IMG/VR virus record: IMGVR_UViG_3300021131_000003 | Location: 1 to 64,000 of that record | Strand: one strand, 5' to 3' | Length of the DNA: 64,000 nt | From: a virus | Shown here: piece by piece, positions 19,409 to 30,202 of the stretch | Layout of the letters: each line of letters begins with the position of its first letter | Numbering within the stretch: position 1 is the stretch's first letter | Program-made: the position numbers and the translations under genes | Notes under the pieces: generated by a model | The model's database searches: none | Seen by the model: the letters and a program-made list of their open reading frames with translations, nothing else | Told to the model about the DNA's origin: nothing

Positions 19409-21114
19409 TAGTTATTGATTCCCCCTGTAAAGGTAAGTACTAACCCAGTTGCTGTGTTGTTGAGCGTAGGGATTTCGTTAGCTCCGCAGATAACATCTTT
19501 GGTTGTCAACTTATACGCAGTACCTGTAGAGGTTGTAGTTGTTACTACAGAAGAAATTAACGCATAAGTAAAGGTAGTAGTTGTAGGTACGCCTGTAACA
19601 ACAAATGTGCCACTAAAGGTCGTGTCACTGCTAATGCTTACCTGCACAGTGTCACCCACGTTAAGCCCATGAGCCGCTGAAGTTGTTATAGTAGCTACTG
19701 TTCCGCTTGCAGCCTTGTTGCTAATTGTGGCGTATACGTCGGCATCATTTCTTACAAGGCGAGTAACCTGTGTATACCCCACGCCAGCAACAGAATTAAT
19801 AGCCTTTGTTACATCGTTAAGGGTAATTTTATCTGCAAAGCTAACGTTATCAAAAGCTAGCAAGCTAGCTAGAACAGAGTTAACCGCAGTGGTAACTAAG
19901 CTTGAACGATACTGCGGAAGAACAGTAATGTTTGCGCTAATGTTAACGGGTACATAAGAAGGTGGCTGGAAGGTTACAGTTGTATTGGCTGGAATCTTTC
20001 CAATTAAAAACGTCTTAACTGTAGCCGCTAAGTTGTTAAAGATATTTGAAGGGGTTACGCCATCAATTTGAACTCCACTATCTCCGTACGGAGCAAAGAA
20101 CACAGTAACGCTTGAGTATACGTCTGCAATTGCGTTAGCCTTAGCCACACCTGCTGACTTAACCAATGAGGCATAATCCGCTAAAGATACGGCTCTGTTG
20201 AGAGACTTTAAGCTTAAAGGCGCGTTAGCTCTAATAGAGTCTGTTGATTCTTGGTCAGCTCCACCGCTGGCAGCTGCTAAGTTAGTTACGCTTAGGCCGC
20301 TTGTGCTATTTGTCAAGACAGACTTGATGGCACCAATAGCCACGTTTCCTGTTGCACCTCCACCTACACGGTAGGTGGCTGTTAGTGCAGCGTTTGCATC
20401 TGGGACACGTCCGCTAATGTTATCGCCAAACAAAACATAAGAGGTTCCAGCGGCATTTGTATAAACAGAGAACACTGGGTCATAGTTTGTATAGTCAATA
20501 AGGTAAGGCACCTGTGTATAAGGTACCGTCCCTGCAGTAACTGACAATGAACCTTGGATAAGAGGAGACTTGGCGAGCGCCCATACTTGGTTAATCTCAC
20601 CTGTAGAGATGCCAACAGGTTCGTTTGTAACTGTATAGCCCTGTGTGCAAGCAACATCAGCCTGCCCGTTAACTGTTCCTGATTTAGCTGGTACGGTAAC
20701 TGATGTATTAGTTTCAAAAATAATTTGTGTGCCTGCTGTGCTTGAAGCAGTAGTGGCCACCTGAGTAAGTGCGGGTACAGTAATAGGGTTGCTAGATGAG
20801 TTATAAAAACGAACAGTTACAGTTGAGGCTGTTGCTGCTGATGGAGCATAACCAAGAAGTCGAGCAATCTGCAGAACACTATCGCGCTGGGTAGCAGTAC
20901 CGATAAAGGCTTCATTAGCCGCGCGGTCAATGTAATAGTTAAGAATGTCACCCATGTAAGCAAAGAGCTCAATAAGAGTAATACCAAAGTCTGCTGGGTC
21001 GCGGTTGGTCCAGTTAGGTAGGTAGTTTGGAATAAGGCTAATCATGTCGTCACGAATAGCGGCAAAGTCTTTGGAGGTGTAGTCCACCTGTGGAACGTAG
21101 TTAATATCAGCCAT
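19408..21114 (-). CDS. Baseplate J-like wedge protein
   Basis: A 568-residue homologue of P2 gpJ/T4 gp6 that forms baseplate wedges. The hallmark N-terminus is present: Y-T-S-K-D-F, then D-P-A-D-F-G-I-T-L-I-E-L-F-A-Y-M-G-D, with R-A-A-N-E-A-F near 60. The start is taken at ATG 21114, eight codons inside the longest ORF, because a GGAGG lies 9 bases before it. Near the C-terminus (~490-555) an extra A-A-H-G-L-N-V-G-D module is present that also occurs in fibre genes of this window. Confidence 0.9.
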   Translation of the reverse strand: MADINYVPQVDYTSKDFAAIRDDMISLIPNYLPNWTNRDPADFGITLIELFAYMGDILNYYIDRAANEAFIGTATQRDSVLQIARLLGYAPSAATASTVTVRFYNSSSNPITVPALTQVATTASSTAGTQIIFETNTSVTVPAKSGTVNGQADVACTQGYTVTNEPVGISTGEINQVWALAKSPLIQGSLSVTAGTVPYTQVPYLIDYTNYDPVFSVYTNAAGTSYVLFGDNISGRVPDANAALTATYRVGGGATGNVAIGAIKSVLTNSTSGLSVTNLAAASGGADQESTDSIRANAPLSLKSLNRAVSLADYASLVKSAGVAKANAIADVYSSVTVFFAPYGDSGVQIDGVTPSNIFNNLAATVKTFLIGKIPANTTVTFQPPSYVPVNISANITVLPQYRSSLVTTAVNSVLASLLAFDNVSFADKITLNDVTKAINSVAGVGYTQVTRLVRNDADVYATISNKAASGTVATITTSAAHGLNVGDTVQVSISSDTTFSGTFVVTGVPTTTTFTYALISSVVTTTTSTGTAYKLTTKDVICGANEIPTLNNTATGLVLTFTGGINN

Positions 21115-23649: not shown

Positions 23650-24752
23650 TAGTTACCTGCCACAATTCCAGAACCAGAGAAGCAATCAATACTTAATGAT
23701 ACCGTTGTGCGTACAGGTATCATGTTCTCCGTAAAATCAGTGTGTTGAATACCCATAGTGGTAATCCACCCAACATAGCTCAAGCTGTCTAATGTAGGTC
23801 CAATTTGGATACCAACCAGGGTAGGCATCAAGAACCCAATGTTAGCTGTTTCTTTTCCTAATAGGTTTGTCCAACCACCATTTGCTTGACCACCGTTTAA
23901 AGTTTTAAATAGATACTCAAGGTCAGCCATGGTGCCCTGTGCCATAAGCTGTTGAATCTTATCGGCAGTTGTAATTTCATTTGACTGAATTGGGTAGGCG
24001 TTACCGTCGTAGTAACTGGTGAACTGGGAGTAGTTTACGCCCTTAGGGTCATTGCCTCCACCATATGCTTTGACGCAGGCAAAATCATTTACTCGGTCAA
24101 GTTGCAAGGTTAAAGATACAGTCTCTTGCCCAGGAAATGCTCCAGAGACAACCTTTAGAGAGTCTGCTGGGCTTGGGGTAATATCCATATTACGGGTAAC
24201 GCTTGTGCTAATAGATGTAGGGTTCCACATAAATTGAAAACCCCAGTGGTTGCTCATTGAGCTAAGAACTGTTCCCGCATCAGTGTTTTTAGTCCCAGTA
24301 TTTTTAGCAGCTGTAGCGCCAGCAGTAGTTACGTTACCGCTATCGTCAAAGGTACTAACGTTATTAGCGCCTGAGTAATACCAGATACGACCTCGGCGCA
24401 TACCATGGAACGCGTCGTAGTTGTTTGCCCCTACAAGCTCAGAATCCATCTGGCGTGGGCGAACAGGCAAGCTCCAATTATGCGGAGGAAGATTCCACTT
24501 GTAATCAGCAGTAGGCATTTTATTAATTTCAGCGCTTGTATCGGTGCTTATAGTTTTGGTGCTTACTGTAGGCTTCTGTAAATCTAAACTTAAGTAATCA
24601 TCTAAGCGTAGACGGGTAGAGGTACTGTTAGCTGAGTAGTTAACAGCGGATACCGCTTGTTGATTAGCTAGCTGTAATTGGCGCTCAACTTGTATATCTG
24701 TAGTGGCGGTAGTTCCAATGAACCCGCCATCGTCTGCATAGTAACTAGCCAT
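23649..24752 (-). CDS. CIS-tube-like baseplate/tail protein
   Basis: A 367-residue virion protein. The middle W-G-F-Q-F-M-W-N-P-T-S-I segment (about 172) and the later T-L-Q-L-D-R-V-N-D-F (about 217) match the pattern of contractile-injection-system tube/initiator proteins. The N-terminus (1-90) is low in hydrophobics and probably extended. It lies directly between the tape measure and the LysM gene, where a protein starting the tail tube on the hub is expected. Alternative: a generic baseplate hub subunit. Confidence 0.65.
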   Translation of the reverse strand: MASYYADDGGFIGTTATTDIQVERQLQLANQQAVSAVNYSANSTSTRLRLDDYLSLDLQKPTVSTKTISTDTSAEINKMPTADYKWNLPPHNWSLPVRPRQMDSELVGANNYDAFHGMRRGRIWYYSGANNVSTFDDSGNVTTAGATAAKNTGTKNTDAGTVLSSMSNHWGFQFMWNPTSISTSVTRNMDITPSPADSLKVVSGAFPGQETVSLTLQLDRVNDFACVKAYGGGNDPKGVNYSQFTSYYDGNAYPIQSNEITTADKIQQLMAQGTMADLEYLFKTLNGGQANGGWTNLLGKETANIGFLMPTLVGIQIGPTLDSLSYVGWITTMGIQHTDFTENMIPVRTTVSLSIDCFSGSGIVAGN

Positions 24753-27022
24753 TATTTAGTTGCCACCCATTTACTAGTCTGTAGGTCTTTAACTGCTTGT
24801 TGAATAGCCGCTTGTATCTTTTTAGGGTCTCCGCCCATTACATTCATATTGAAGGTAACACCGCCGTAATTGACTGTGCTTCCTCCTCCACCGCCCAAAA
24901 GCTGTGAAGCATAACCAGCAGCATCACCACCCAAAATACTGGACAGGGTTGTTCCCTTAGCAATTGAGCCTGTCTTTAAGTATTGCTGGAACGCTGCGTT
25001 AAAGGCTTTTCCATTAGTACCGAAGAAAGAAGTAATAGCTGAAGCCGTTCCAGCGTCTTCAGTAATGCTTGAGTGCGTTTTAAAAGTTCCCCATGGGGAA
25101 GCGCCAACTATTGCTCTAAAGTCTTCTGCTGAAACGTTTCCAGCAGATAATGCTCCCAAAATTTCATTATAACGAGAGTCACCCTTAAGGGTTTTAATTG
25201 TAGCTTCCACTCCTTGTTTATAAGAAGTATAGTTTTTAACTCCATCTTTATTATTGGTAAATCCTTCTGCCTTGCCCGCGTCAACTGCCCCTGGCATAGG
25301 TTGTGTGGTAGCTAATGGATTGAACTTAGCTTTAGTATTTTCTCCAGACATCCACATTAAAATATCTGCTATAGCACTTGGTGTAGCTTTATCACCTAAA
25401 CCAGCTAGTAAGTCTTTAGCAAATACATCTCCACCACCAGCGCGTCCCCCTTTATACTTAAAGAGTTGACTAGTTATGTTGTTTGGAATGATGGTTCCAT
25501 CTACCTTAGGAACAAATAGCTCAGGTCCCTTTTCACCAACCATATACATATTGGATGCCGCAGTAGGTCCGCCAGAAGCTTTACCTGATATACCAAGGAG
25601 AGCTGTAAGGAATTGGATTAGCTTGTCGCCCATACCGTTACCTGCAGCGCCTAAGGTTTGAAGTAGAGCAGCCATACTATTAAGACCAAGTACGCCCTGA
25701 GGGTTAATGTTGTTCTGTATGTTGCCCATATCAGTTAAGAAGTTCTTAGTTCCAGCAAATGTTTTAGCTCCAGCTGGGGATGCAAGAATCAACCCCTGAG
25801 TAGCAACTGCATTGCCGCGGCTAAATGCCTGGACAGCCTCGGTGGTTAACCCAGCAGCTTTAGCGTTGGCAGCATTAATAGTTGTATCCGCGCCAGCAGC
25901 AGTCTGACGAGCTTTAAATACAAGACCGTTCTTAATCATGTTATAGACAAGTGGGTCTTGGCCAAATAGATTCTGAACCAAAGAGTCCATAGAGTTTCCT
26001 GGTTGGAAACCAATCAAGACTTCGCGCTCAGATGGCTTTCTTCCAGCGCCATAAGCTTGCCCGTAGTCTCTACAAATCTTTGTCCACAAGTCATCAATAA
26101 TCTTATCTGGCGGCTTTAAGTTTCCATCCGCATCACGAATAGAGATACCAACACCGCGAAGCATGTTTACATTTCTGCCTTGTTGCATAGCACCGTATGC
26201 GCGCATAGCGCCTTCAGCGCCAATACCTGGGGTGAGGTTAGATACGTTAGCTACGCCTTGCGCAATACTTCCATTGAAGTTACCGCCAGCGCCCTGTAAT
26301 AAGTTAGTTCCATTAAGTCCGTAGCTTTGAGCAGCAGCAATGGCATTGATAGCATCCATCTTGTCATTTACAGAGCCTTGAAGACCCATCTTCATCATGG
26401 CGTCTTTTACATAGTTCTGTTGATTGTCAAGAACCATAGCTGAAGGCAGAGTTGCGCCAGGGGTTGTTGGTCCCATAGCAACCTTGTTGCCCATCATGGC
26501 GTTAGCTCTTACATAAAGAAGCTGAGCTTGAACCATGTCAGATGTAGCGTTAGCTCCCATAAGAGCTGTGCCCATTCCGTAAAGAGCCGCCGCTCCAGGG
26601 TTCTGACTTACATAATCAGATAGGTTACGGAACATGCCTCCGCCGCCAGAGGAGCCAGATGAGCTTCCGCTTATTCCGCCACCACTAAAGGCTCCGCCAC
26701 CTATTACAGTAGGCGCAGGTCCTGCAGCAATTTGATTTTGTCCACCGCCATATACAGCAGGGGCATTGTGAAAGACTGGGTCTGGAGCTACGTGATTTCC
26801 ATAAACTCCGCCACCGCCGTAGCCACCGCCGTAGCCGCCAACAAAACCGCCTTGAGTTTGAACAAGCCTCTGATTACCAGACTGCATTGTTTGAACAAGG
26901 CTTGTCCACTCTTGTCTTAGAAGGGAGGTTTCTTGGCGCATACTAGAGATGCTGCTCTTGATATCAGAGACTACAAAGCTAGTACGAGACGGTAAGTTCA
27001 TACCGCTCTTGCTATCAGCCAT
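24752..27022 (-). CDS. Tape measure protein
   Basis: A 756-residue protein that sets tail length and threads through the tube. A coiled-coil N-terminus (~15-50) is followed by a Gly/Tyr-rich disordered stretch (~55-135), a helical Ala/Gly-rich middle with hydrophobic segments, and the M-V-G-E-K-G-P-E-L-F-V-P motif near 490-505 that is typical of tape measure proteins. The C-terminus (~600-720) is globular, possibly enzymatic, but no lysozyme motif is certain. Its ATG overlaps the stop of the small frameshift ORF upstream (TAATG). It is modest in length for a myovirus. Confidence 0.85.
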   Translation of the reverse strand: MADSKSGMNLPSRTSFVVSDIKSSISSMRQETSLLRQEWTSLVQTMQSGNQRLVQTQGGFVGGYGGGYGGGGVYGNHVAPDPVFHNAPAVYGGGQNQIAAGPAPTVIGGGAFSGGGISGSSSGSSGGGGMFRNLSDYVSQNPGAAALYGMGTALMGANATSDMVQAQLLYVRANAMMGNKVAMGPTTPGATLPSAMVLDNQQNYVKDAMMKMGLQGSVNDKMDAINAIAAAQSYGLNGTNLLQGAGGNFNGSIAQGVANVSNLTPGIGAEGAMRAYGAMQQGRNVNMLRGVGISIRDADGNLKPPDKIIDDLWTKICRDYGQAYGAGRKPSEREVLIGFQPGNSMDSLVQNLFGQDPLVYNMIKNGLVFKARQTAAGADTTINAANAKAAGLTTEAVQAFSRGNAVATQGLILASPAGAKTFAGTKNFLTDMGNIQNNINPQGVLGLNSMAALLQTLGAAGNGMGDKLIQFLTALLGISGKASGGPTAASNMYMVGEKGPELFVPKVDGTIIPNNITSQLFKYKGGRAGGGDVFAKDLLAGLGDKATPSAIADILMWMSGENTKAKFNPLATTQPMPGAVDAGKAEGFTNNKDGVKNYTSYKQGVEATIKTLKGDSRYNEILGALSAGNVSAEDFRAIVGASPWGTFKTHSSITEDAGTASAITSFFGTNGKAFNAAFQQYLKTGSIAKGTTLSSILGGDAAGYASQLLGGGGGSTVNYGGVTFNMNVMGGDPKKIQAAIQQAVKDLQTSKWVATK

Positions 27023-27184
27023 TAGGCCCTCCCTCCGCTATAACGTAAAGCTCGGTCTATCCAGTTCTTTCTGTCTCTAACTGAGAGCTCTTTAATCTCA
27101 GTTAAAGTCCAGCCACCAAAAACTCTGGTTAACAACTCGTACTCATTAAGTAGAGCTGTGTACTCTAGAAGCCTAGAGTCGAAA
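27022..27184 (-). CDS. Probable +1-frameshift extension of the gp26-like tail chaperone
   Basis: A 52-codon open frame from 27180 down to the TAA at 27022-27024, with no ATG, GTG or good ribosome binding site. It encodes a compact helical peptide with L-L-E-Y, E-L-L-T-R-V-F-G-G-W and L-S-V-R-D-R-K-N-W-I. It is in the +1 frame relative to the end of the 27173-27961 gene and overlaps it only between 27175 and 27189. The overlap carries TTT-C followed by CGA (27179-27184), where a Phe-tRNA on UUU could slip to UUC. Expression as a fused product is inferred from position and frame. Confidence 0.55.
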
Positions 27185-27961
27185 CAAATCTAGCAAGCTC
27201 AGCGGTAGAGGAATCTGCTCACCACATGCCTTGCATGGCTTCTTCACCTCCCCAAGGCGTGGGCCTGGGTTACGTTCAAGAATGTCATCTACTAGCTTTG
27301 TTCTATCTGCCATACCTAAGCTAAGAGCGGTAGGTGCTCCAATAGCTGGCTTATCTGCCAGTGATAGTAAGCAGCCTGCTAATAGCAAGGTATTAATCTC
27401 AGAGGCAGTCTTATCGGCGTTGTCCATAAGGCGCTTCTGCACTCGACCAACAGGAAGAGTAAGAACGGCTGTTCCCATCTTTGTCTCTACTGACCACTCG
27501 CGAGATGCTTGGTCATCTAAAGTTTTAACTGGAACATCCTCTGAAAGATTGATTGTAATGTCCTGGTCTTGATTACAGTTAAAGCAACGACCTTGAAGCT
27601 CTAGCTCATCTCCAAATGTAATTGTTCTAATACCAATCAAGATGGCGTCCCTGTCTCCAGAGAGCAGACTGTCAAGGTCATCCTTACCAACCTCCTTGCC
27701 ACCTAGACCTATTAATCCACGCTGTAGTAAAAGGTTTAGGGCTTTGGCTCGGCTACCTGCTTTAGAGATAGCTTCCTCATCTGCTCCATTTAACTCTCGT
27801 ACTTCAGCAGTAGTTACTAAACCAGAGTCTGAAATAAATCCGCCAGGAAGTTTCACCTCTGGGTCGGAAGGGGCCCGAGATGTGATAACCACCTCGGGCT
27901 CTTCCATAGCCTGTTGCGCGTACTTTGATACAAGTTCTGCGTCAGTAATAATGTTACTCAT
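27173..27961 (-). CDS. T4 gp26-like baseplate hub/tail assembly protein
   Basis: A 262-residue protein. It carries V-R-E-L-N-G-A-D-E-E near 54-63, G-D-E-L-E-L-Q-G-R-C-F-N-C near 115-127 (a zinc-ribbon half), and C-K-A-C-G-E-Q near the C-terminus, matching the gp26-type baseplate/tail assembly family. In many contractile-tailed phages the gene in this position, immediately before the tape measure, encodes the tail assembly chaperone with a frameshifted longer form; a candidate extension overlaps here. The start has an AAGGAG site. Confidence 0.8.
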   Translation of the reverse strand: MSNIITDAELVSKYAQQAMEEPEVVITSRAPSDPEVKLPGGFISDSGLVTTAEVRELNGADEEAISKAGSRAKALNLLLQRGLIGLGGKEVGKDDLDSLLSGDRDAILIGIRTITFGDELELQGRCFNCNQDQDITINLSEDVPVKTLDDQASREWSVETKMGTAVLTLPVGRVQKRLMDNADKTASEINTLLLAGCLLSLADKPAIGAPTALSLGMADRTKLVDDILERNPGPRLGEVKKPCKACGEQIPLPLSLLDLFRL

Positions 27962-27979: not shown

Positions 27980-28612
27980 TTAAGCTAAGCTGCGACCATC
28001 TGTTGGGTTGAAGGAGGTGTCAGTGAAGAACACTGATAGACCTTCATGTACCAAGCTCATTGACTCAAACAGGATTGCTCCATCGTTAGCGTTTAAGTCG
28101 GTATAGCTTAGCTGAGTAATCCAAGCGTTACGGACGTCAAATCCCATGCGAGGCGTATTAGCTGCCTGAGAGTTTGGGTGGTCCATAACATAGATTTTCA
28201 TGTTAACGCGGAAGCCCTGCTTATTGGTAGCTCCAGCTTGGATACCGTCACCAGATACGGCAGCAAACATGCCGCGCATCCAAGTAATGCCTTGGTCGTT
28301 TCCGTACAAGACACCACGTTGTAGTGAGATAGGTGTGAAGGTTGTCATTCCAGGGACCTGGTGAACAGTGGTGTTGTAGCCACCCTCACGGTATTGGATT
28401 GATTGGGTGGTGATATTCAATCCTGAGATTGAAGTAAAACCACCAAGGAAGCCTGTTGACTTTCCAGTCGTAAGGCTTGGTACAGCACCAGACACTGTGG
28501 TTAGACGAGTGTCGAAGGTGTTATCTACTGCGGTGAACTCTACGTTAAACCGAAACGAGCGTAACGGGTCGGTTGCCAAAGTAGAGAACCGATTAAGCGA
28601 TGTATCTGCCAT
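27980..28612 (-). CDS. Tail tube protein (gp19-like)
   Basis: A 210-residue tail tube subunit. The start D-P-L-R-S-F-R-F-N-V-E-F, the V-S-G-L-x-like loop (F-T-S-I-S-G-L-N near 62) and the C-terminal W-I-T-Q-L-S-Y-T-D-L-N-A-N region match T4 gp19-type tube proteins. It is directly downstream of the sheath gene, as in most myoviruses. Tube rings stack inside the sheath and form the DNA channel. Strong AAGGAG site before ATG. Confidence 0.93.
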   Translation of the reverse strand: MADTSLNRFSTLATDPLRSFRFNVEFTAVDNTFDTRLTTVSGAVPSLTTGKSTGFLGGFTSISGLNITTQSIQYREGGYNTTVHQVPGMTTFTPISLQRGVLYGNDQGITWMRGMFAAVSGDGIQAGATNKQGFRVNMKIYVMDHPNSQAANTPRMGFDVRNAWITQLSYTDLNANDGAILFESMSLVHEGLSVFFTDTSFNPTDGRSLA

Positions 28613-28627
28613 TTTTTATTTTCTCCT

Positions 28628-30202
28628 TTACGCCACGGTAACGGTAATGCCACCGTTAAATTGACCGATTTTGATGATTACAAATTCAGCAGGGCGCTGT
28701 AAAGCTACGCCTACATCAATGTGTAGTTCACCATTATCGATGGATGCCTGTACGTTATTTGTAGCATCACACTTAACGAAGTAAGCCTGTGCAGGTGTTG
28801 CACCAACAAGACCACCTTGTGACCAGAACTGTGTCAAGAAGGTAGAGAATGTTGCGTTAATGCGGCGCCACAAAGCTGGGTCATTTGGCTCAAAGATTGC
28901 AAACTGGCTGAGGTCCTTGAGAGCCTTCTCAAGATAGATAAGGGTACGACGAACTGGTACATACTTATCTACATAACCTTGCTTGAGTGTGCGTGAGCCC
29001 ATAACTACGATGCCTGTGCCAGGAACATACTTAATAGCGTTAACAGGAACACCTGCTGAGTTAAGGCTATCCAAGTCTGAGTTAGACAAAGACGGAACAG
29101 AGACCACGTTAGCTAAGCGAGCTTGAAGTCCAGCTGGCGCCTTAAATACTCCGCGAGAAGCATCAGTAGACGCATAGACTCCAATAACAGCTCCACCAGG
29201 AGCAACGGTCTTTACCGTATTTGAAGCAGAACCGACTGTTGATGTTGGGTCTGAGATAGAGATACGAGGGTAGTAGACCGCTCCATATGAACCAGTTGAT
29301 GAGGTTCCATATGCAGAAGCTGTACTGATTGCTGTAGCTGCAGATGAGCTTGTGTCTCCGTCAATAACAACAAACACATCTCCTCGGCCTGAGGCGTAGG
29401 TAAGAGCGTTATTGATATTTGTAGAGTCTATGATACCAGGTAGGTTCAGAATCAAAGACTGTTGGATAGTATCAAAGCTGCTAAGAGCTGTTGAGTACTG
29501 AGCAGTAGTCAATGTTAGAAGGCCATTTGCGCCACCAGCCAAAGCTGTTGGAGTTGGTACATTGTTAGTAACAGTGCTGAGAGCTGGATTACGTGTTGCT
29601 CCAGTAGACGCGGCTCCTGCATCAGCTGCAAAGATGTATGAAGAGCTAGCGTTAATTACTGTAGGTGCGTAACGAGCATCAGTAGCTGTCATAGAAATAT
29701 CTGTGTAGCGCTCAACAATGTATGCTTCATTGTAAGTAGCAGGCATGTTGTAAGCCACAAAGAGGTTAAAGTAACCAGTAACAGAAGAATCTGTAACGAT
29801 TACGCTTGTGCTGTTACCCCATGCTCCAGCGTTAGTAGCGTTAAGGGTAAGTGTGTTTAGTGCAGTTCCTGAGGTACGGTCCTTCAAAGTAATAGCTGCT
29901 GTAGTAGCGTTGTTTGAAGGTGTTACGGTATCGCCAGAGTAAACTACACGACGGATATAAGCCTGACGACCACCATTTGCAAAGAATAGATAAACAGCGA
30001 TAGGCAGGTCATTTGAGTTTGCAGTATTCCATGTGCCATACAAAGTTGTGTATGCGCTCCATGAAGTTACAAGAGTAGGTACGGTTGGGCCACGGTCTGT
30101 AGGGCCTACAAAAGCCGCTACTGAATCCGAGTTAGGACCTACTGTGGGTTGAACGGGGTTTAGCGTTTCTTGAACGTAAACTCCAGGCCGTAGATATGCC
30201 AT
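28628..30202 (-). CDS. Contractile tail sheath protein
   Basis: A 524-residue sheath protein, proof of a contractile tail. The N-terminus Y-L-R-P-G-V-Y-V-Q-E-T and A-F-V-G-P-T-D-R-G-P, the middle N-L-P-G near 265 and the C-terminal handshake region (K-A-L-K-D-L-S-Q-F-A-I-F-E-P-N-D, W-R-R-I-N, and the final F-V-I-I-K-I-G-Q-F) are diagnostic. A variable Ser/Thr-rich domain lies between. Strong AAGGAG site. Next gene is the tail tube. Confidence 0.96.
   Translation of the reverse strand: MAYLRPGVYVQETLNPVQPTVGPNSDSVAAFVGPTDRGPTVPTLVTSWSAYTTLYGTWNTANSNDLPIAVYLFFANGGRQAYIRRVVYSGDTVTPSNNATTAAITLKDRTSGTALNTLTLNATNAGAWGNSTSVIVTDSSVTGYFNLFVAYNMPATYNEAYIVERYTDISMTATDARYAPTVINASSSYIFAADAGAASTGATRNPALSTVTNNVPTPTALAGGANGLLTLTTAQYSTALSSFDTIQQSLILNLPGIIDSTNINNALTYASGRGDVFVVIDGDTSSSAATAISTASAYGTSSTGSYGAVYYPRISISDPTSTVGSASNTVKTVAPGGAVIGVYASTDASRGVFKAPAGLQARLANVVSVPSLSNSDLDSLNSAGVPVNAIKYVPGTGIVVMGSRTLKQGYVDKYVPVRRTLIYLEKALKDLSQFAIFEPNDPALWRRINATFSTFLTQFWSQGGLVGATPAQAYFVKCDATNNVQASIDNGELHIDVGVALQRPAEFVIIKIGQFNGGITVTVA

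Follow-up and report, generated by a model that had tools for sequence, protein, structure and literature searches.

A probable +1 frameshift at UUU_C links a gp26-like gene to a hidden frame before the tape measure gene of a contractile-tailed phage

Results

The gp26-like gene and the frame junction

The DNA analysed here, referred to as the window, is a stretch of 64 kb out of an 81.7 kb virus record (IMGVR_UViG_3300021131_000003). On its minus strand, a gp26-like gene is followed by a hidden +1 frame that extends to the start of the tape measure gene. From comparison with relatives, these two parts very probably form a single tail assembly chaperone gene with two readings, the second via a +1 shift at UUU_C. 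The features of this gene are as follows.

27173..27961, minus strand: 0-frame product of the gp26-like gene, 262 aa, read as the short chaperone form (counterpart of lambda gpG and P2 gpE)
27179..27187, minus strand: putative slip site TTG_TTT_CGA, with TTG in the E site, TTT in the P site (re-pairing on TTC) and CGA in the A site
27184-27181, minus strand: putative slip tetranucleotide TTT_C
27022..27180, minus strand: hidden +1 frame, read as the frameshift-only chaperone domain (counterpart of P2 gpE' and lambda T)
27192..27234, minus strand: RNA hairpin, proposed +1 stimulator, directly 5' of the slip site with a 7-nt spacer to TTT
27245..27268, minus strand: CCAGGCCCACGCCTTGGGGAGGTG, the block of strongest synonymous constraint in the gp26-like gene

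The gp26-like gene ends in the 0 frame with GAT TTG TTT CGA CTC TAG (27190-27173), in which the stop codon TAG occupies 27175-27173. In the +1 frame, a TAG at 27192-27190 is followed by an open frame with 52 post-shift codons (27180-27025), closed by a TAA at 27024-27022, overlapping the tape measure start codon (TAATG). An earlier note, made from the sequence alone, had described a 52-codon open frame between the gp26-like stop and the tape measure ATG and had placed it at +1, and reading of the junction confirmed both the extent and the frame. The possible shift window is 14 bases (27189-27176), close to the overlap of about 15 bases given in that note. TTT_C at 27184-27181 is the sole spot in these 14 bases with perfect +1 re-pairing of the P-site tRNA, which agrees with the earlier choice of TTT-C followed by CGA as the slip site. 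With TTT_CGA, the junction has a P-site UUU_C followed by an A-site CGN, and the CGA codon is rare in the window (3.4 per 1000). No classical -1 heptamer of the X_XXY_YYZ type was found in the 14-base shift window, and the hidden frame is +1. The frame had also been described as lacking a start codon. As a minor exception, it contains one TTG, which is located inside the conserved domain (NEYE-TTG-LTR).

As an observation on the window as a whole, an in-frame TTT followed by C occurs in its longer open reading frames (ORFs) at about half of the expected number (37 versus 71 expected), as if slip-prone sites were avoided.

Conservation of the junction among relatives

Relatives were collected by scanning viral contigs with the gp26-like protein. 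From 168 contigs encoding a relative, 80 loci were taken in one scan, and further scans, one of which yielded 549 relatives, extended the set. A tblastn search against phage records matched the Streptomyces phages BRock, Alone3, LuckySocke, GiJojo and pSt2308. The TTT was first recognized as the meeting point of the frames by direct reading in 80 loci. For the count of junctions, any in-frame TTT near the stop was taken if its +1 reading held the Arg motif of the domain, and the bases after TTT are therefore a result and not a condition of the count.

In 200 of the 203 fetched loci, the 0-frame stop is preceded by a TTT at the corresponding position, and the +1 reading from it encodes the shared domain; the triplet after TTT was CGN (most), CAR or TAR. 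Of the three exceptions, two are cut off where the contig ends, and in the third (L018/L119, a single contig retrieved twice) the frame meets an early stop. Relatives lacking the open frame had been named in the earlier note as a refutation; the relatives keep both the frame and the UUU_C/U junction, and the idea is not refuted by them. Because some contigs were fetched repeatedly, the fair count is 124 distinct loci, distinct by the hidden peptide together with the upstream 60 nt. They fall into four lineages that span down to approximately 32% protein identity: 96 loci near the window, 13 of the Streptomyces type, 12 of the L080 type and 3 of the L086 type. The junctions of the Streptomyces phages are CTG TTT CGC or CTG TTT CAG, that of L086 (32% identity) is TTG TTT CGC, and the L080 type includes UUU_UAA and UUU_UAG junctions.

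The E-site codon across the relatives is TTG, CTG, CTA, TTA, CTC or ATG. The Leu codon before TTT is TTG in 39 of 46 representatives, and the synonymous identity at this codon was 0.75, while 0.28 was expected, which makes it the second-strongest single column in the gene. The synonymous constraint on TTG was also observed among closer relatives. Since this identity exceeds the expectation, the junction is kept as nucleotides, not as amino acids alone.

Selection on the hidden frame and its start codons

The codon-substitution test proposed in the earlier note was run on 92 loci from the window's lineage, which form the largest group without gaps. The median ratio of nonsynonymous to synonymous substitutions (dN/dS) was 0.137 in the hidden frame, and 1.01 and 2.32 for the same DNA in the other frames. 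The third codon positions of the hidden frame were the most variable in the same 92 loci. The hidden frame is under strong purifying selection. Because it is open, encodes the same peptide in practically all relatives and has a dN/dS of 0.14, it is not a chance frame.

Start codons were searched for from the preceding stop to the sixth codon after the slip. No ATG, GTG or TTG precedes the conserved block of the hidden frame in 75 of the 124 distinct loci, and the other 49 have a start-like codon, which in most cases falls within the upstream gene, at one of a small set of positions. The hidden frame is without a general start codon of its own; a start codon with its own ribosome binding site was what the earlier note had named as evidence against frameshifting.

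RNA structure upstream of the slip site

A new feature described here is a conserved RNA hairpin at 27234-27192, directly before the slip site, with its 3' end 7 nt from TTT. The pairing test was performed on a named structure, consisting of this hairpin and a small hairpin further upstream, in a gap-free alignment of 39 representatives. In statistics that ignore shared ancestry, standard pairs were present in 89% of the cells as compared with 36-58% with slid partners, changes on both sides of a pair were found in 42 cells as compared with 23 in shuffles (0 of 500 reached this number), and the mean folding energy was -19.0 kcal/mol as compared with -15.0 after codon shuffling between sequences that share the amino acid (z -10.6; z -15.6 against the gene-wide synonymous null). 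Short stems of different sequence are predicted 3-5 nt before TTT in the L080 lineage. Several members of the Streptomyces-type lineage have 5-bp stems approximately 7 nt before TTT, with a weak folding excess, and the L086 lineage showed no folding excess for the upstream hairpin. In vitro, with 70S ribosomes, upstream refolding hairpins favour +1 and counteract -1 shifts; the favouring of +1 was observed only without RF2, at a CUU_UGA-type site (PMC6321510). By analogy, the hairpin here may stimulate the +1 shift.

The block CCAGGCCCACGCCTTGGGGAGGTG (27268-27245) forms a second small hairpin (27269-27251), holds the Shine-Dalgarno-like GGAGGTG and is unique within the window. GGAGG is present at this place in 94 of the 96 distinct loci that form the window's lineage; the other three lineages lack it throughout. 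Because the block is confined to the window's lineage, the shift in general would be independent of it. Between its Shine-Dalgarno-like core and the slip site lie 60 nt, which is not the directly upstream position of the prfB type.

Three other candidates in this region were rejected. A stimulatory structure 3' of the slip site gave z -3.2 in a simple shuffle of the window alone, while the mean z of the relatives was -0.05. For internal initiation at the Shine-Dalgarno-like core, an NTG is located 8 nt downstream in the -1 frame, and no conserved ORF was seen there by eye. Long-range pairing of GGGGAGGTG with the rest of the transcript had no conserved partner. In addition, codons 31-48 of the gp26-like gene (27871-27818, minus strand), distant from the slip site, fold far better than the synonymous null (delta -8 kcal/mol).

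Identity of the two protein parts

The gp26-like protein matched the Pfam family PF12322 (T4_baseplate) at 32.1 bits, with a gathering cutoff of 24.5, and it matched phrog_150, as did all 37 members of the set A1. A sequence search found no solved relatives. AlphaFold2 (AF2) models were made separately for the main protein and the hidden domain. The main model had a predicted local distance difference test (pLDDT) score of 85.7, and its best match among solved structures was the tail assembly chaperone of HK97 (2ob9; probability 0.91-0.97, template modelling (TM) score 0.52-0.58 by target length). Because the E-value of this match was 0.18-0.48, which is not significant, we take it as a lead rather than proof. 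The predicted-fold matches of the main model include gp26-like proteins, such as gp26 of Aeromonas phage 25.

The model of the hidden domain (pLDDT 90) consists of three helices, and all matches in a fold search among viral models were weak (E above 0.3). The domain was similar to gpE', the frameshift-only part of gpE+E' of phage P2 (hhalign E 1.8e-5, probability 78%, 28 columns). PF06528 (Phage_P2_GpE) was drawn by 13 of 35 members of the hidden domain, with matches below the curated cutoff wherever the members are listed singly. Because of the gene order and the likeness of the hidden domain to P2 gpE', and weakly because of the 2ob9 lead, a tail assembly chaperone is the best reading of the gene.

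The tail module

The gp26-like gene is part of a contractile tail module on the minus strand of the window (sheath, tube, gp26-like gene, tape measure, and further tail and baseplate genes). Its neighbours are as follows.

28628..30202, minus strand: tail sheath protein gene (PF17482, phrog_23), which marks a contractile-tailed phage
27980..28612, minus strand: tail tube protein gene, upstream neighbour of the gp26-like gene (PF06841 Phage_T4_gp19, E 2e-25)
24752..27022, minus strand: tape measure protein gene, downstream neighbour, ATG at 27022 (tape measure matches in PHROG)

The gp26-like gene thus sits between the tail tube and tape measure genes, and by position the same holds in BRock, Alone3, GiJojo and pSt2308. 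The earlier suggestion of a tail chaperone is supported by this order (sheath, tube, gp26-like gene, tape measure) together with the P2 gpE' likeness, and weakly by the HK97 fold match. The BRock record labels the gene in the tape measure position as an endolysin. Upstream in the tail module of the window, a low-complexity protein rich in Ala, Pro and Asp is encoded at 32175-31768 (minus strand). No Rfam families and no tRNAs were found within the window.

Discussion

Comparison with known frameshift systems

The chaperone genes of P2 (E/E+E') and lambda (G/GT) share with the gene described here the place before the tape measure gene and the two-product layout, and in P2 the gpE' part is also similar to the hidden domain. 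They differ in that the shift there is -1, while here it would be +1 at UUU_CGN, and P2 gpE has 91 aa (19430-19705), as compared with 262 aa of the gp26-like main protein. In a review, the tail chaperone frameshift is described as widely conserved except in T4, and that of HSTV-2 as very likely +1 (PMC5009743). The gp26 family of T4 (PF12322, phrog_150) is shared by a sequence profile above the cutoff and by the predicted-fold matches, although its members are annotated as a part of the baseplate hub, and the gene here lies between the tube and tape measure genes with a frameshift extension.

The motif itself is known from other systems. For the HF1-like haloviruses, TTT-CGC was proposed in 2020 as the +1 site of a two-part chaperone before the tape measure gene, on comparison of six related genomes (PMC7230728); the relevant passage reports no RNA structure. 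Direct reading of the HF2 junction gave AAG TTT CGC AGA TAG. The HF1-like haloviruses are archaeal viruses (myoviruses), whereas the virus here is a bacterial phage, and homology with the HF2 chaperone main protein was rejected, with no detectable similarity (hhalign probability 0.1). In influenza PA-X, +1 slippage at UUU_CGU is established, and CGN is preferred after UUU at several viral sites (PMC3498833); in plant amalgaviruses, UUU_CGN is prevalent (PMC5052127). These sites have the same P-site UUU_C and A-site CGN, but they are read by eukaryotic ribosomes, and the hairpin upstream is a difference of the present site. The E-site codon of PA-X is UCC, while here it is mostly TTG or another Leu codon, which speaks against a full likeness to PA-X but leaves the UUU_CGN motif unaffected. 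Listeria phage PSA cps/tsh and bacterial prfB are cases of bacterial +1 shifting by P-site slippage (PMC5009743, PMC3711429), with different slip codons (CCC and CUU) and other gene functions, and prfB has a Shine-Dalgarno sequence directly upstream. In the open-access literature, we found no paper on such a +1 site in bacterial phages of this group. The sequence data give good support to the view that the gene carries a +1 version of the conserved -1 tail-chaperone frameshift, at a UUU_CGN motif already known elsewhere.

Proposed mechanism and alternative explanations

In the proposed mechanism, most ribosomes would terminate at the TAG (27175-27173) and produce the 262-residue short form. 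In a minority, tRNA-Phe would stand on UUU in the P site while a slowly read CGA occupies the A site, and the tRNA would move by one base in the 3' direction onto UUC, with which its anticodon GAA forms only Watson-Crick pairs. Continuation in the +1 frame would produce a 312-residue form with the three-helix C-terminal domain like P2 gpE'. The hairpin, which ends 7 nt 5' of the P-site codon, may form again once the ribosome has passed and so drive it onward. If the roles are those of lambda gpG/gpGT and P2 gpE/gpE+E', the tape measure protein would be coated by the short form, and tube subunits would be recruited by the long one. The comparison of sequences provides the conserved site, the selected hidden frame without a general start, the hairpin, the gene order and the domain similarity, all of which speak for a single gene read in two ways. 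From these we infer the occurrence and rate of the shift, its direction as +1 rather than -2, the slowness of the A-site codon, the stimulating effect of the hairpin, and the functions of both products.

Several observations weigh against this reading. The window has four further in-frame TTT_CGN sites, and UUU_CGN is therefore insufficient by itself. CGN as a class is not rare in the window, in which CGC and CGT are common, and some relatives have CAA or CAG in the A site. To these are added the E-value of the 2ob9 match, the PF06528 matches below the cutoff, the disregard of shared ancestry in the hairpin statistics, and the weak or absent folding excess in the Streptomyces-type and L086 lineages.

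As an alternative, the hidden frame could be a separate small gene, expressed by reinitiation or from its own start without fusion. The records of BRock, Alone3 and GiJojo list the hidden frame as a separate gene, and the TTG in the window's frame, like the start-like codons in 49 of the 124 loci, could be taken as such a start. However, the majority of the distinct loci offer no start before the conserved block, the separate annotations leave out the first residues of the domain, and separate initiation would not explain an invariant TTT and an E-site TTG constrained beyond its amino acid. We regard this explanation as very unlikely. In BRock (L082), the domain annotated in this way is gene gp135 (73496-73282), without the domain's first residues. 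A -2 shift or RNA polymerase slippage would be a still more improbable route into the hidden frame. A run of three T is short for efficient polymerase slippage, which counts against that part of it. A -2 shift would give the same frame and has been reported for phage Mu (PMC3498833), but it would place tRNA-Phe on UGU, UCU or UAU depending on the lineage, whereas +1 re-pairing on UUC or UUU is available in all loci. A single base would be enough to join the two frames, as in a sequencing error or a decayed gene with an indel in the window, but in 124 distinct loci, which come from many assemblies and include sequenced isolates, the frames are offset identically and at one and the same codon, which refutes this explanation and leaves it next to no probability.

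There is a substantial possibility, though it falls short of being probable, that the upstream RNA structures serve another purpose, such as internal initiation, mRNA stability or a protein-binding site, and are dispensable for the shift. The strongest block (27268-27245) occurs in one lineage only, lies approximately 60 nt upstream and has a Shine-Dalgarno-like core, codons 31-48 are strongly structured although remote from the slip site, and the folding excess is absent in the L086 lineage. On the other hand, the nearer hairpin (27234-27192) stops 7 nt short of the slip codon, a type of position known to promote +1 shifts (PMC6321510), and stems of other sequence are predicted near the slip site in the L080 and Streptomyces-type lineages.

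The wider gp26 family

In an exploratory survey, ten further loci in phage records were found to have a gp26-like gene followed by an open second frame. The second frame is +1 in six of the ten: Streptococcus phage GXN1 (TTC TTT CGT), Bacillus phage SP-15 (TTT TTT CAC), Listeria phage LIS04, Microcystis phage Mel-JY01, Flavobacterium phage immuto and the uncultured LR756508 (TTT CTA). It is -1 in the other four: Xanthomonas XacN1 (L221), Melnitz (L222), Agrobacterium Atu_ph07 (L223), which has the classical T_TTT_TTC, and the uncultured LR756511 (L218), at whose -1 junction no evident slip site was found. These loci suggest, as a second new point, that shifting by +1 or -1 at the same Phe codon may be a habit of the gp26 family as a whole. 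Separately, distant gp26-like genes in three Lysobacter metagenome-assembled genomes (L087, L088 and L089) end in a T9 run, and the -1 frame after the gene also has its own overlapping start (ATGA).

Tail chaperone frameshifting has nearly always been described as -1. We give an even chance to the broader proposal that a +1 module, UUU_CGN with an upstream refolding hairpin, replaces the -1 signal in this branch, and that the whole gp26 family, including some T4-like and jumbo phages, consists of chaperones extended by +1 or -1 at one conserved C-terminal Phe codon. Experiments would be most worthwhile on the upstream hairpin and on the switch between +1 and -1 within a single family. The variants of the A site (CGN, CAR, UAR), of the E site and of the hairpin over four lineages form a natural experiment on forward slippage, and raise the question of what makes CGN the preferred triplet after UUU in phages of bacteria and in viruses of eukaryotes alike. 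With the +1 reading, genes annotated as baseplate parts or as hypothetical in BRock, Alone3, GiJojo and others would become tail assembly chaperones, which gives a lead on how T4-like tails manage the chaperone step. If the broader proposal is true, T4, with its reported lack of a frameshift, would be the exception in the gp26 family.

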